Virus record (IMG/VR): IMGVR_UViG_3300031688_000098
Coordinates: 1-28,188 of that record
DNA length: 28,188 bases
Strand: one strand, 5' to 3'
Source: a virus
Below the pieces are notes generated by a model, which saw only the letters and a program-made list of their open reading frames with translations, was not told the DNA's origin and did no database searches. This document shows, piece after piece, positions 1 through 25,454 of the stretch. Every line of letters begins with the position of its first letter. The first letter of the stretch is position 1. A program made the position numbers and the translations under genes.

Positions 1-1848
1 CTCGTCTGTAATACGCTCTATGTTACCTTCATCAATATCTCCATCCTGAAGAATTGCTTGTAGTTGGCTTGTGGTAGCAGAAGAAATTTTAGTTTTATCT
101 ATCTCACTATCTCCAAACCAATCTTTGTTATACAGCCCACTATCTACAGCGCTGTCTAACGATTCGTTGTCCTCGAGGCCACTTAAAGCTCTACCTGATG
201 ATCGGCCGGCAAAGTTACCTATAATAGCTCCTGTGACACCTCCTATTAAACCACCTATTGCCATTCCAATTGGACCACCAATTGCTCCTATTGCCACCCC
301 AGCCTTAGCTCCACCAATACCACCAGCTACGGTGCCGAAAGCACCGACAGTTCCTTCACCTATTTCTGCTGTCCGTGCCACTTGCTTTTGTTCTTCATCT
401 AGGAACCTGTCATCATCTTTGTCTAACTTAGCTCTATTTTCTATCTCACCCAAATCGCCTGTAGTGGGAGCATCTGAAAAAGGATTTCCCATTTCAAGGC
501 CTTCTTTGACTACAGCCAAAGCAGCAGTAAGTGGCACAGCTACTTTACTAACCACTTTCATAGCAGGAGAATTCATTACCCTTGCCGTTCCCGCTTGAGC
601 TCTAGAAAGCATGCTTGGCTTTATAGGCTTAGGAGTAGCGTTTGCTATGGCCCGGCCTTGTGTAGAATCTGCTGGATAAAATCTACCAGATTTTGCTTTT
701 ACATCTGTTGGATTTGCTCTTGCTGCTGTTCCGCTGGCAGCTGAGCTTGTTGCTTTAGGCAAGGTACTTGTTGGTGGTTTAACAGCTGGCTTGGCTGTTC
801 CTTTTGTAGTAGTTCCTTTTGTATTACCTTTTGTATTACCTTTTGTATTACCTTTTGTATTACCTTTTGTATTACCTTTCGTATTACCTATGGGGCTCCT
901 GCCCCTGCCCCTGCCGGTTCCCAATGGTACCGGAGGCCCCATTCCACCTGGCCCCATATCGCCCATCATCTGATTATACCATTTTTCTAATAGATCGTAT
1001 ATATCAGTTAGGACTTCATGGTTCTGTTCTGGTATTGATTCTGTATCTACACCTGATCTTCCTTCACCCTTTCCAGGTTTTAAAATCCTACCTTCATCTG
1101 CCATGGTTCTAAATTCTTTAAACTTAGCCTTCATTACCTTCTGTTTTTCTGGGTCTTTATTAGCAACTGCAAACATTTTTGTTGAAGTGTCTATACCTTG
1201 AATGCCTAATTTATCAGCAGCTGCTGTAAGCCTTGTTACCTTTTCATCAGTTAAATCCTTTTTGCCTGCCCCTGCATCTGCAATGGCATTTAGCGCGTCT
1301 GTAAACGCTTCTCTGTCTTCTTTACTGGCACTGGCTAATGTTGATGATAATTCATTTATCTGTTCAGGAGTAGAATACTGTCCTGCGAAAGATGCCATTA
1401 TGTTATTAGCATCCATTTCTTGTTTGTTGTTTCCTACACCCTTTCCGCCTACTAAAGAACCAAATATGTCTGCTAGTCTTTCTGTTTGAGGTACCTTCTC
1501 ACCCTCACCTCCCATCATATCCTTAATGTCTTTTATGCCACCTTCAATACGAGATCTAGATTTTTGAGCTCCTGCGTTATGTTTCTTTGTACTCTCTTGA
1601 AAATTCTGCTGTGATATTGTAACGTCTCTGGCCTCTTTATCTCTGCCCAGGTTCATTATCATTTCGCCTGTTTGAAGAACATTGAGAAGTTTATTCTTTT
1701 TAGCGTGATCGCCTAACTCCTCGAACCCTGCATTAATATCGTCTTTATGTTGGCCAACTTCCTCTCTAACACCATCTAATGCGTCTTTCATAGACTGACC
1801 TTCTAAGGCCTTATCCATCAGTCTTTGTATTTCTTTTTTATCTGCCAT
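1..1848 (-). CDS. Probable tape measure protein (gp29 position), C-terminus beyond window
   Basis: A reading frame of 616 codons starts at the ATG at 1848-1846 and is still open at base 1. The start overlaps the stop of the preceding gp51-like frame as TAATG, so translation is probably coupled. The N-terminal ~250 residues are polar and mostly predicted helical. A linker near residues 315-345 carries six tandem Gly-Asn-Thr-Lys units. A Gly/Ala/Ile-rich hydrophobic segment lies at about residues 525-560, and a helical stretch rich in Ala, Val and Leu lies near residue 435. Tape measure proteins set tail length and are encoded directly after the G/GT-type assembly chaperones; that position, the length and the hydrophobic segments are the reasons for the call. 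I do not recognise a specific T4 gp29 motif. A hub or peptidase-bearing structural protein is the main alternative, since the C-terminus is missing. Confidence 0.5.
   Translation of the reverse strand, partial: MADKKEIQRLMDKALEGQSMKDALDGVREEVGQHKDDINAGFEELGDHAKKNKLLNVLQTGEMIMNLGRDKEARDVTISQQNFQESTKKHNAGAQKSRSRIEGGIKDIKDMMGGEGEKVPQTERLADIFGSLVGGKGVGNNKQEMDANNIMASFAGQYSTPEQINELSSTLASASKEDREAFTDALNAIADAGAGKKDLTDEKVTRLTAAADKLGIQGIDTSTKMFAVANKDPEKQKVMKAKFKEFRTMADEGRILKPGKGEGRSGVDTESIPEQNHEVLTDIYDLLEKWYNQMMGDMGPGGMGPPVPLGTGRGRGRSPIGNTKGNTKGNTKGNTKGNTKGNTKGTTTKGTAKPAVKPPTSTLPKATSSAASGTAARANPTDVKAKSGRFYPADSTQGRAIANATPKPIKPSMLSRAQAGTARVMNSPAMKVVSKVAVPLTAALAVVKEGLEMGNPFSDAPTTGDLGEIENRAKLDKDDDRFLDEEQKQVARTAEIGEGTVGAFGTVAGGIGGAKAGVAIGAIGGPIGMAIGGLIGGVTGAIIGNFAGRSSGRALSGLEDNESLDSAVDSGLYNKDWFGDSEIDKTKISSATTSQLQAILQDGDIDEGNIERITDE
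815..886 (-). repeat. Six 12-bp tandem repeats coding Gly-Asn-Thr-Lys
   Basis: On the plus strand the unit is CCTTTTGTATTA, present six times head to tail with a single base change in the last copy (CCTTTCGTATTA). On the coding (minus) strand each unit reads Gly-Asn-Thr-Lys. The repeat sits in a low-complexity linker of the putative tape measure protein, between Gly/Pro/Arg-rich and Pro/Ala/Lys-rich stretches. Near-perfect DNA identity suggests recent slippage, so copy number may vary between relatives. Confidence 0.95.
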
Positions 1849-2719
1849 TAGTAATTCTCTTTATCCTGTTTAATCTTATCCGCCTTCTTCTGAAGGTGTT
1901 CTATTAACATAGCAATATATACTTCTCTTTCCCAGGGCATCATATCTTCTAACTCTGTTAAACTATAATGATGCTCTTGCATTAATAAGAAGTTCGTCTT
2001 GTAATAGTTTTCAAGACGCTCCTGAGAAAGAGTTAGACGAAAAAATGTTCGTAACCATTAATGGAAATACGATTTTCAAACTCACATTTACACTTGTATT
2101 CTACCATGTGTTCTACTTTAGGCATTTTTTGAAAAAACTCTTGAACCTTTTCAAAAACATCTAATGGTAAGTTATCTATAAACTCCATTACGTCTTCTGT
2201 TGTCTCATCTGATATTTCGAGTATTTCATCTTCGCTATATACTCGCTTGATACATTTAACAACAATGTCTGTATCATCTGTATCGCTGATTTCCATAACA
2301 GTTTTTGCTGTAGGATATGCCAGTTCAATAGCAACAGTATCAGATATTTTAATAAGTTTATCTGGTGCTGTATCTAATCCAACAACATTAACATCTGTAA
2401 GGTCTAATGTATACGACATCTTTTCTTCACAACCACCACAAATTAATGTGAACTCTTGTGAACTGCCCGTTGACTTCTCTTTTAATCTCATGAATATATG
2501 TTGTAAGTCAAATATACTTAACTCATCAACTTTAATTTCTTCTTGCGAACAGTTAGCTACGATCTGCTCACAAGCACCAATCATATCTTTGTATTCTCCA
2601 CCTTCACTAGCCAACATCAGTATTTTTTCTTCCCTTACAAGAAACGGTCTAAACTTATAAACCTCTCCTGTAGACGGAATACTAACGTCAAATATTGGCA
2701 CTTCAATTTTTGGTAACAT
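1848..2719 (-). CDS. gp26-gp51 frameshift fusion (tail assembly chaperone, GT-type)
   Basis: Predicted product of a -1 ribosomal frameshift at 2039-2045: 227 residues of gp26 followed by 63 residues from the -1 frame, ending at the TAA at 1850-1848 (290 aa in total). The -1 frame has no ATG, GTG or TTG until an internal ATG at 1982, and that start would cut off the Tyr/Phe-rich beginning of the domain. The extension has the look of T-type chaperone extensions: YYKTNF, then QEHHYSLTELE, then PWEREVYI, and a charged helical tail. In T4 the gene after 26 is 51, a separate hub assembly gene; here the equivalent seems reachable only by frameshifting. By analogy with lambda gpG/gpGT, the fusion would bind the tape measure protein encoded next. 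Fusion is inferred; the open frame, slippery site and missing start are seen directly. Confidence 0.75.
1995..2018 (-). promoter_or_regulatory. Hairpin downstream of the slippery site
   Basis: CGTCTTG (2018-2012 on the minus strand) pairs perfectly with CAAGACG (2001-1995) around a 10-base loop, giving a 7-bp stem. It begins 20 bases after the heptamer, which is farther than the usual 5-9 base spacing for a -1 stimulator, so its role is uncertain. An AGGAG tract directly before the stem has no in-frame start codon after it. Confidence 0.5.
2033..2719 (-). CDS. 26: gp26 baseplate hub / tail assembly protein
   Basis: A 228-aa protein of the T4 gp26 family (T4 gp26 is 208 aa). The N-terminus (IEVPIFDVSIPSTG, then FRPFLVREEKILM) is typical, as is the central Cys pair C94-C97 with a second pair C210-C212, which together look like a zinc ribbon. 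The start at 2719 has a good ribosome binding site, AGGAG, a few bases upstream. In T4, gp26 is needed for making the baseplate hub. Its neighbours here are gp54 upstream and the gp51-like frame and putative tape measure downstream. The last codons contain the slippery T TTT TTC, so this protein is probably the short, in-frame product of a frameshifted pair. Confidence 0.85.
   Translation of the reverse strand: MLPKIEVPIFDVSIPSTGEVYKFRPFLVREEKILMLASEGGEYKDMIGACEQIVANCSQEEIKVDELSIFDLQHIFMRLKEKSTGSSQEFTLICGGCEEKMSYTLDLTDVNVVGLDTAPDKLIKISDTVAIELAYPTAKTVMEISDTDDTDIVVKCIKRVYSEDEILEISDETTEDVMEFIDNLPLDVFEKVQEFFQKMPKVEHMVEYKCKCEFENRISINGYEHFFV
2039..2045 (-). promoter_or_regulatory. -1 slippery heptamer T TTT TTC
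   Basis: In the gp26 frame the codons are CAT TTT TTC GTC TAA, so the heptamer fits the X XXY YYZ rule with the zero-frame codons TTT TTC. After a one-base backward slip both tRNAs re-pair on TTT. The zero-frame stop follows two codons after the heptamer, and the -1 frame is open for 63 codons. Confidence 0.75.
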
Positions 2720-2732
2720 AATTTATCTCCTA

Positions 2733-3503
2733 TTAATTATCTGTTTTCTGAGTAAGGCCTGCGTCTGCAGTTCCCGTATCAGGTCCTTCTTCCACTGGTT
2801 CTTTAAATTCACCGCCCATGTTAACTCTAATATTATTAGAGTCCCAATAAGTAGCTGATACTATTAACGTGGTTCTCACCACTCCTACAGATCCCATACT
2901 CATAGGCTGTAGGTTTAAAACTTTAGGAGTAACTTCATGTAATACCCATGATCTCCTGTAATTATCTTGCATGTCCATAGCGTTTATGCTAATCTGTCCC
3001 CATGTATCACTAGGCCATATAACTTCTTTTGACGTAGGGTCAATGGTCATTGCGAACCATTTTTCAAATGCCTCTCTTAACTTCCAATCTACATCGGTAT
3101 AAAATGTAAAGTTTATTTCTTGTCCTAAGAACTGCATGTTTGAGTTTCTGTAATGTGTCCATGGTCCTACATTAAATTCTTTATTAGCTAATGCCATACC
3201 TGGAATCTGTACTTCTTCACACATTATAGTTGCATACTCTGGCATACGAGTATCAAACGCCTCTCTAACAGATAGTGGAAAACTAAATTGGCATTCGAAT
3301 CTTTCTGTTCTAGCTAATTGTGTGTTGTAAATTGTTTCTTGAAAACTTGTTCTGCCACCTTTACGATACTGGTGGTCTAATTGTGTTAGGGGACCAGTGG
3401 TTAAATTGGGATCAGGATGTTGATGTCCAGGCCCAGGTTTATTCTTCTTAACCTTTGACTTGTTGTAAGCTCCCCGTAATATACTTTTTAAGCTAAATCC
3501 CAT
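2733..3503 (-). CDS. 54: gp54-like baseplate tail-tube initiator
   Basis: A 256-aa protein. Residues 60-225 resemble the tail-tube (gp19-type) fold shared by T4 gp54 and gp48: a beta-rich domain opening with FECQFSFPLSVREAF, then EEVQIPGMALA, then FTFYTDVDWKLREAFEKW and a C-terminal RTTLIVSATYWD. T4 gp54 (320 aa) sits on top of the baseplate and starts tube polymerisation together with gp48. The N-terminal ~50 residues are basic and Pro-rich, and the last ~30 are acidic and probably disordered. Its ATG overlaps the stop of the preceding gene as TAATG. The partner gp48 is encoded on the opposite strand only 1.1 kb away. gp19-like tube protein is the alternative, but length and neighbours favour gp54. 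Confidence 0.7.
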   Translation of the reverse strand: MGFSLKSILRGAYNKSKVKKNKPGPGHQHPDPNLTTGPLTQLDHQYRKGGRTSFQETIYNTQLARTERFECQFSFPLSVREAFDTRMPEYATIMCEEVQIPGMALANKEFNVGPWTHYRNSNMQFLGQEINFTFYTDVDWKLREAFEKWFAMTIDPTSKEVIWPSDTWGQISINAMDMQDNYRRSWVLHEVTPKVLNLQPMSMGSVGVVRTTLIVSATYWDSNNIRVNMGGEFKEPVEEGPDTGTADAGLTQKTDN

Positions 3504-24236: not shown

Positions 24237-25454
24237 ATGAGACCATTAAAAATCAAAGCATCTTCGTATCCAGTCAGTGCCTCAAACTTCCAAGGTTTGC
24301 AGGAAATGACAGATACAGAAATCGAACAATATTATAGTGCAACATTATTAGCCGATTATGCCACAAATACTGATGGTACTGGAACAGGCGAATTGAATGT
24401 AACAACTGACGGCTCAGGAGCAGGAACTACAATAGGTTCTATTACTGATACAAAACGTCAAGATGCTATAGGAACTCACCCAACGTCAGGCTCTACAAGC
24501 AATGTTAATGTGTATACATTCAAACAAGTTAACGGAGCAGCTTCAGAATCAGTTACAAATAGACCAGTAGGCTATGAAGATTCCGGCTCAGTTGGCATTA
24601 ACGAATTCACAGATGCAGAGTTAGACACAGACATTTTAGATAAGGTTCTCGGTGACTTAGTAGCACAAGGCGACTATGTTACAGGACAATATAAGTTATC
24701 AACAAGTGCACCAGCAGGTGGCACATGGACATCTAGGTATACACTAATAGATACGCAAGTAGATGAAACAGAAGCAACTAAGTACATTTGGCAAAAAACA
24801 ACAGCTTCAACAGCAGCAGTATCCAATTATAAACCTGTTAAATTAGATGGTACAGCTTTAAAGGAAATGTCCGTAGCTGAAATGAAACAAGCAACGCCGA
24901 ATATGAGAAATAGAATTACAGATTCTACAATAGGCACATATTCATTAGCAACTAACGCACCAGGTTCAGGTACTTGGGTACAACAAGGCGAGACGTTTGT
25001 AGATACAAGACAACAAGTTGGTTCAGTAAATTACGCAGGAGCCTATGCAGGTAACTATGCAGGTAACTATACAGGAGCCAAAGATTATTCAGGAGCTTAT
25101 TCTGGAGCATACACAGGTAGTTATACTGGAGCATACACAGGGACCTCAGCATACGCAGGAGCCTATGCCGGAGCTTACACAGGATACTACGCACAAGACT
25201 ATTCAGGATACGCAGGTACTTCATACACAGGTTACTACACAGGATACTACACAGGGTATTACACAGGTGCTAAGAACTACTCAGGAGCATATTCTGGGGC
25301 ATACACAGGTAGTTATACTGGTACTTACACAGGAACCTCAGCATACGCAGGAACTTATTCAGGTACTTACACAGGATACTATGCAGGCGATACAGTATTA
25401 GCAGCAGAAGAAGATGTTAATACGGTTAAACTGTGGATTAAGACAGCAGCGTAA
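24237..25454 (+). CDS. Tail-fibre-like protein with Tyr-Gly tetrapeptide repeats
   Basis: A 405-aa protein. The N-terminal ~145 residues form a compact region starting PLKIKASSYPVSASNFQGLQ. Two related short blocks follow, with TSAPAGGTWTSRYTLIDT (from ~158) and TNAPGSGTWVQQGETFVDT (from ~240). Residues ~265-386 are almost only Tyr, Gly, Ala, Thr and Ser in a four-residue rhythm such as AYTG and YYTG. The end, EDVNTVKLWIKTA, is typical of marine phage fibre genes. Part of the repeat is duplicated over 192 bp. Fibre is the best call from position, N-terminus and repeat type; a receptor-binding tip is possible. Confidence 0.7.
   Translation: MRPLKIKASSYPVSASNFQGLQEMTDTEIEQYYSATLLADYATNTDGTGTGELNVTTDGSGAGTTIGSITDTKRQDAIGTHPTSGSTSNVNVYTFKQVNGAASESVTNRPVGYEDSGSVGINEFTDAELDTDILDKVLGDLVAQGDYVTGQYKLSTSAPAGGTWTSRYTLIDTQVDETEATKYIWQKTTASTAAVSNYKPVKLDGTALKEMSVAEMKQATPNMRNRITDSTIGTYSLATNAPGSGTWVQQGETFVDTRQQVGSVNYAGAYAGNYAGNYTGAKDYSGAYSGAYTGSYTGAYTGTSAYAGAYAGAYTGYYAQDYSGYAGTSYTGYYTGYYTGYYTGAKNYSGAYSGAYTGSYTGTYTGTSAYAGTYSGTYTGYYAGDTVLAAEEDVNTVKLWIKTAA
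25031..25395 (+). repeat. Tyr-Gly tetrapeptide repeat with 192-bp duplication
   Basis: About thirty four-residue units of the form Tyr-(Ala/Thr/Ser)-Gly-x, coded by loosely similar 12-base units. The blocks starting at 25074 (GAKDYSG) and 25266 (GAKNYSG) are 192 bases apart, exactly 16 units, and share a unit order of YSGAYSGAYTGSYTG, a TSAYAG, and YTGYYA. Synonymous differences between the copies show that the duplication is not very recent. The lack of unique spacers rules out a CRISPR array. Confidence 0.9.

Follow-up and report, generated by a model that had tools for sequence, protein, structure and literature searches.

A conserved slippery heptamer at the 3' end of gp26 very probably directs a -1 frameshift into a gp51 domain in T4-like phages

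A programmed -1 frameshift that yields two tail assembly chaperones, one short and one long, is with high confidence the best explanation for the organisation of the gp26 locus in a marine T4-like phage known from a virus record. The fragment analysed (28.2 kb; the window hereafter designates this whole stretch of DNA) carries a tail-tube-like gene, gp26, a gp51 frame and a large next gene with a weak match to tape measure proteins, in this order. The features of the locus are the following.

2733-3503, minus strand: tail-tube-like protein, directly upstream of gp26 (phrog_45, E 8e-14)
2033-2719, minus strand: gp26, putative short tail assembly chaperone, 228 aa, PF12322 (Pfam, phrog_150, AlphaFold2)
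2039-2045, minus strand: slippery heptamer TTTTTTC, read T_TTT_TTC in the gp26 frame (sequence; conserved in 85/88 clusters)
2033-2035, minus strand: gp26 stop TAA, one codon past the heptamer
1848-2042, minus strand: -1 frame extension with the gp51 domain (phrog_634; synonymous evolution in relatives)
1995-2018, minus strand: candidate stimulatory hairpin CGUCUUG (2018-2012) / CAAGACG (2001-1995), 20 nt past the heptamer (folding)
1-1848, minus strand: putative tape measure, the next gene, running off the contig (position; weak phrog_23574 and phrog_1047 matches)

The gp26 product matched PF12322 with 178.3 bits (E 2.3e-52), exceeding the curated Pfam cut-off of 24.5 bits, and phrog_150 with an E-value of 5e-56. 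The 3' end of the gene reads GAA CAT TTT TTC GTC TAA, where the heptamer (2045-2039) has the in-frame X_XXY_YYZ form and is followed by a single sense codon, GTC (2038-2036), before the stop. A first-pass annotation of the window had correctly recognised the heptamer near the end of gp26, but had placed it four codons from the stop. Its description of the -1 frame was confirmed: this frame, closed upstream by TAA at 2060-2058, extends for 63 codons beyond the heptamer and ends with TAA at 1850-1848, in a TAATG shared with the start codon of the next gene (ATG 1848-1846). The encoded peptide, described there as a conserved-looking domain, indeed matched phrog_634 ('baseplate hub assembly catalyst', i.e. 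gp51) with an E-value of 7.8e-25 and also aligned with the C-terminal end of phrog_150. The statement that the frame has no usable start was nearly right, the first ATG, GTG or TTG being ATG 1982-1980, which lies 56 nt after the heptamer, has no Shine-Dalgarno sequence and is preceded by 19 conserved codons. For the next gene, announced as the putative tape measure, the position agrees and the sequence match to a tape measure family is weak (phrog_23574, E 2e-5, beside a match to tail lysin phrog_1047); its identity is putative and based mostly on position.

This next gene carries an NTKG tandem repeat, and an opposite-strand ORF over the repeat, reading VLPFVLPF, is a mere mirror of it. Elsewhere in the window, positions 24237-25454 encode a predicted structural protein with a long AYTGTYTG-type repeat. 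In S-PM2 the large gene after gp51 (S-PM2p209, L011 3380-5708) displays an N-terminal ADP-ribosyltransferase match (PF01129, E 5e-6) and, further along, endolysin/peptidase-like regions.

In the proposed mechanism we infer both the occurrence of slippage and its rate: most ribosomes would stop at the gp26 stop and release the short form, gp26, and some would slip from T_TTT_TTC to TTT_TTT_C with re-pairing of both Phe tRNAs. The product of slippage would be gp26 fused to gp51, about 290 aa in length, with the junction ...YEHFF-RLTLSQERLENYYKTNF... The short and long forms together would load the tape measure protein and recruit tail tube subunits.

The two predicted isoforms share their N-terminal domain, as seen from the frame anatomy in the window and its relatives and from the two genes of T4-type phages. 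The AlphaFold2 model of gp26 (mean pLDDT 90.6) matched gp26-family proteins in BFVD with best TM of 0.8-0.9. Against the PDB, no significant match was obtained with the model using Foldseek (the HK97 tail chaperone 2ob9 appeared at E 4.7, TMt 0.44) or with the gp26 profile searched against PDB sequences, including those of solved chaperones; the match of gp26 to the tail chaperone family phrog_2624 was weak (E 0.011). It is nevertheless likely that the short and long forms work like lambda-type chaperones, on the basis of the analogy to lambda gpG/gpGT, the gene order, the short/long pair and the behaviour of T4 gp51, which is needed for assembly and was reported to be missing from the particle (PMC3004832). 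The lambda-like layout noticed in the first-pass annotation agrees with the anatomy found here, namely a short frame that precedes the tape measure position, a heptamer near the 3' end of this frame and a long isoform in the -1 frame. The slippery sequence is different, TTTTTTC here and GGGAAAG in lambda.

Conservation of the site was surveyed in 234 gp26 loci from IMG/VR contigs (seven scans) and annotated phages, the clades including Pelagibacter, Methylophilales, Rhizobium and Ackermannviridae phages. A gp51 domain was present in the -1 frame of 214 loci. The expectation that the heptamer would be conserved across relatives was borne out: 193 of these 214 loci carry TTTTTTN in register, at 0-9 nt upstream of the gp26 stop, and after clustering by gp26 identity the heptamer was kept in 85 of 88 clusters (70% identity) and in 48 of 50 (50% identity). 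The background was estimated from the other open frames in these loci, where 16 of 242 Phe-Phe pairs (about 7%) are written T_TTT_TTN. With clusters treated as independent, the excess corresponds to binomial p-values of about 5e-96 (85/88) and 3e-54 (48/50). While the heptamer is constant among clusters, the gp26 stop varies (TAA, TAG or TGA) and so does its distance (0, 3, 6 or 9 nt). The residue ahead of the Phe pair is variable as well (Ser, Asp, Asn, His and others), its codon ending in T; the final base of the heptamer is mostly C, otherwise T, A or G. Conservation of the heptamer is far beyond chance and goes beyond amino acid and codon constraint. In HTVC008M and Melnitz-2 the run consists of eight T (AGT TTT TTT TAA). 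The arrangement is also found in the finished genomes of cyanophage S-PM2, Vibrio phage KVP40 and HTVC008M, with predicted junctions ...LQSFF-RISMFYNNLENYYR in S-PM2 and ...IEDFF-RIMLGRYSLEEYYK in KVP40. In one locus of the survey (L101) gp26 is truncated by a premature stop that is probably due to a sequencing error.

Coding in the -1 frame was found to begin before any start codon. In 19 of the 85 clusters a -1 stop either immediately precedes the heptamer or is separated from it by 3 nt, so that entry to the -1 frame is possible solely at the heptamer. Across 41 clusters (73 loci), no ATG, GTG or TTG occurs between the opening of the -1 ORF and a point 41 nt or more beyond the heptamer. Within this startless stretch, the -1 frame showed 1609 synonymous and 2619 non-synonymous codon changes between relatives, and the two remaining frames 598/3471 and 574/3569; these counts stem from overlapping, non-independent sequence pairs, but the frame preference is nonetheless clear. 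Conservation extends to the residues that immediately follow the site (F 1.00, L 0.85, H 0.75, L 0.91, Y 0.81, N 0.81, F 0.95). The -1 frame is under coding constraint from the heptamer onward. The counter-evidence foreseen in the first-pass annotation, a start codon with a ribosome binding site ahead of the -1 domain in relatives, was encountered in part: an ATG overlaps the gp26 stop in 9 of the 85 heptamer clusters, for example in KVP40, where the heptamer is kept and both routes, frameshift or separate gp51, are possible. Public records place gp51 at an internal ATG or omit it in HTVC008M, ACG-2014e, ACP17, S13 and KP6 (L012, L013, L017, L118 and L124), and the long isoform is therefore absent from those annotations.

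The 60 nt located 3' of the heptamer were folded for the 85 clusters and compared with synonymous-codon shuffles. RNA structure was enriched, with a mean z of -1.19 and p<=0.05 in 32 of 85 clusters (binomial 4e-20). The hairpin of the window has a folding energy of -6.9 kcal/mol (z -2.1), and a stem-loop formed by GTTCTATAATAAT/ATTATTATAGAAC was found in S-PM2. Covariation of the window hairpin within its own clade was not significant, two pairs being changed on both sides, a number reached by 136 of 500 shuffles. One homologous stem-loop for the whole family was considered and rejected, the structures being lineage-specific. A stimulation of frameshifting by these downstream stem-loops, which are a frequent but dispensable companion of slippery sites, is plausible.

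If gp51 were instead an independent small gene with a start of its own, reached by re-initiation or translational coupling, the T-run would be incidental. Records in the databases do give gp51 as its own CDS at overlapping or internal ATGs, and KVP40, Moby, AF3 and Ag3 have an ATG over the gp26 stop (TAATG). Among the 85 heptamer clusters, however, such an ATG at the stop is present only in the nine mentioned above, and in the 41 startless clusters a conserved frame evolving as -1 coding sequence precedes any start by at least 41 nt. A separate gene would also leave unexplained why the heptamer is kept in 85 of 88 clusters against a background of about 7%, and in the window it would have to start at ATG 1982, devoid of a Shine-Dalgarno sequence, and lose RLTLSQERLENYYKTNFLL. 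The start-codon listing of the -1 frame led to rejection of this model for most clusters, and overall it is considered improbable.

Still less probable is transcriptional slippage on the T-run, by which mixed mRNAs would give rise to the fusion without any ribosomal slip. The runs of eight T in HTVC008M and Melnitz-2 would be favourable to it, but most sites contain exactly six T before C, and a six-T run is short for polymerase slippage. The codon register is moreover fixed, as tandem tRNA slippage demands, and the enrichment of downstream RNA structure over the synonymous-codon null (32/85 clusters with p<=0.05) equally argues against it. The existence of an in-frame fusion in T4-type phages could finally suggest that the gp51 frame is a decaying gene, or that an in-frame fusion was split by an assembly error or an indel. 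This reading can practically be dismissed, as it is refuted by recurrence: many samples yielded the arrangement, in 193 loci altogether, and finished genomes (S-PM2, KVP40, HTVC008M) have it as well, under strong constraint.

As stated in the first-pass annotation, genes 26 and 51 are separate in T4. The T4 proteins belong to the same families as those of the window, with PF12322 in both and phrog_634 at the C-terminus of gp51: T4 gp51 combines a full PF12322 domain (1-201) and the phrog_634 domain in the same frame, and T4 gp26 consists of the PF12322 domain alone, ending with GLKEFFELL. In contrast to the window, T4-type phages have two separate genes without a slippery site, divergent in T4 and 44RR and in tandem in RB43. 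Two PF12322 genes were identified in T4, 44RR, AS-gz and RB43, and a single one in all 12 other phages checked (11 with the heptamer and one of the Ackermannviridae). In a midpoint-rooted tree, in which RB43 gp26 forms a long branch, the T4-type gp26 and gp51 copies are placed together and separate from the one-gene phages (100/97); the gp51 copies in turn cluster with one another (100/99). Together with the two-gene distribution, this grouping fits one duplication replacing the frameshift by two genes, and the T4 group appears from these sequences to have made this exchange. In T4, 44RR and RB43 the shift would thereby have been lost, one copy of the gp26 family providing the in-frame long form (gp51) and the second the short form (gp26).

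The heptamer is absent while the -1 domain is kept in three clusters (21 loci), all of which are Ackermannviridae or close matches (phages of Salmonella, Shigella, Klebsiella and Erwinia); the loss envisaged as an objection in the first-pass annotation thus occurs there and nowhere else in the survey. The site in these phages is the non-canonical [AG]ATTTTC AT[TC] TAA (L117, L120, L124, L126-L143). In members without an ATG at the stop, synonymous changes (TTA/CTA/CTC for Leu) are present in the -1 frame before the first start, and several members have conserved codons ahead of that start. Only slippage of a single Phe-tRNA (T_TTC to TTT_C) fits well with these features, the other option being another start. 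The Vibrio phages D509 and VPALA (L121, L122) have CTTTTC, and no gp51 match was found in their -1 frame, which is open for about 60 codons beyond the gp26 stop.

A more far-reaching scenario, to which we would give slightly less than an even chance, places the gp26-gp51 frameshift at the root of PF12322 as a whole, a family that spans cyanophages, pelagiphages, rhizobial phages, KVP40-type Straboviridae and Ackermannviridae. In the T4 group a single duplication would have abolished it and hard-wired the two isoforms, Ackermannviridae would shift at [AG]ATTTTC by single-tRNA slippage alone, and many lineages would have evolved their own downstream stem-loops independently.

Frameshifting between the tail genes G and T is widely conserved in long-tailed phages (Xu, Hendrix and Duda, 2004; reviewed in PMC5009743), T4 being listed as the exception in that review of 2016. 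A lambda-type chaperone pair in T4-like phages was described by Vladimirov, Gautam and Davidson (2022, Virology 566:9-15), according to the papers citing it (PMC12846349, PMC10885494). The chaperone strategy suggested for this phage group in the first-pass annotation is supported, although, going by those citing papers, the core idea was already published and the locus of the window represents a further instance. In Vandenendeviridae and Andersonviridae, a tail chaperone frameshift takes place at GTTTTT (PMC12846349); it resembles the present case as a -1 shift on a polyT at the 3' end of a short tail chaperone gene, and differs in the phage families and in the motif. In the open-access literature, a description of the frameshift in cyanophages was not found beyond the papers citing Vladimirov et al. 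(2022), nor was any account of how widely the site is conserved, of the start-codon test, of the stem-loops particular to each lineage or of the Ackermannviridae variant; coming from open-access sources only, this absence is weak evidence of novelty.

The exception represented by T4 (PMC5009743) is a local one, since nearly every other sampled branch of the family keeps the shift site. Annotations of gp51 deserve correction in several of the finished genomes checked, where the gene was started internally or missed. The family offers a testable system for the way in which gene duplication can take over isoforms that originate from frameshifting.
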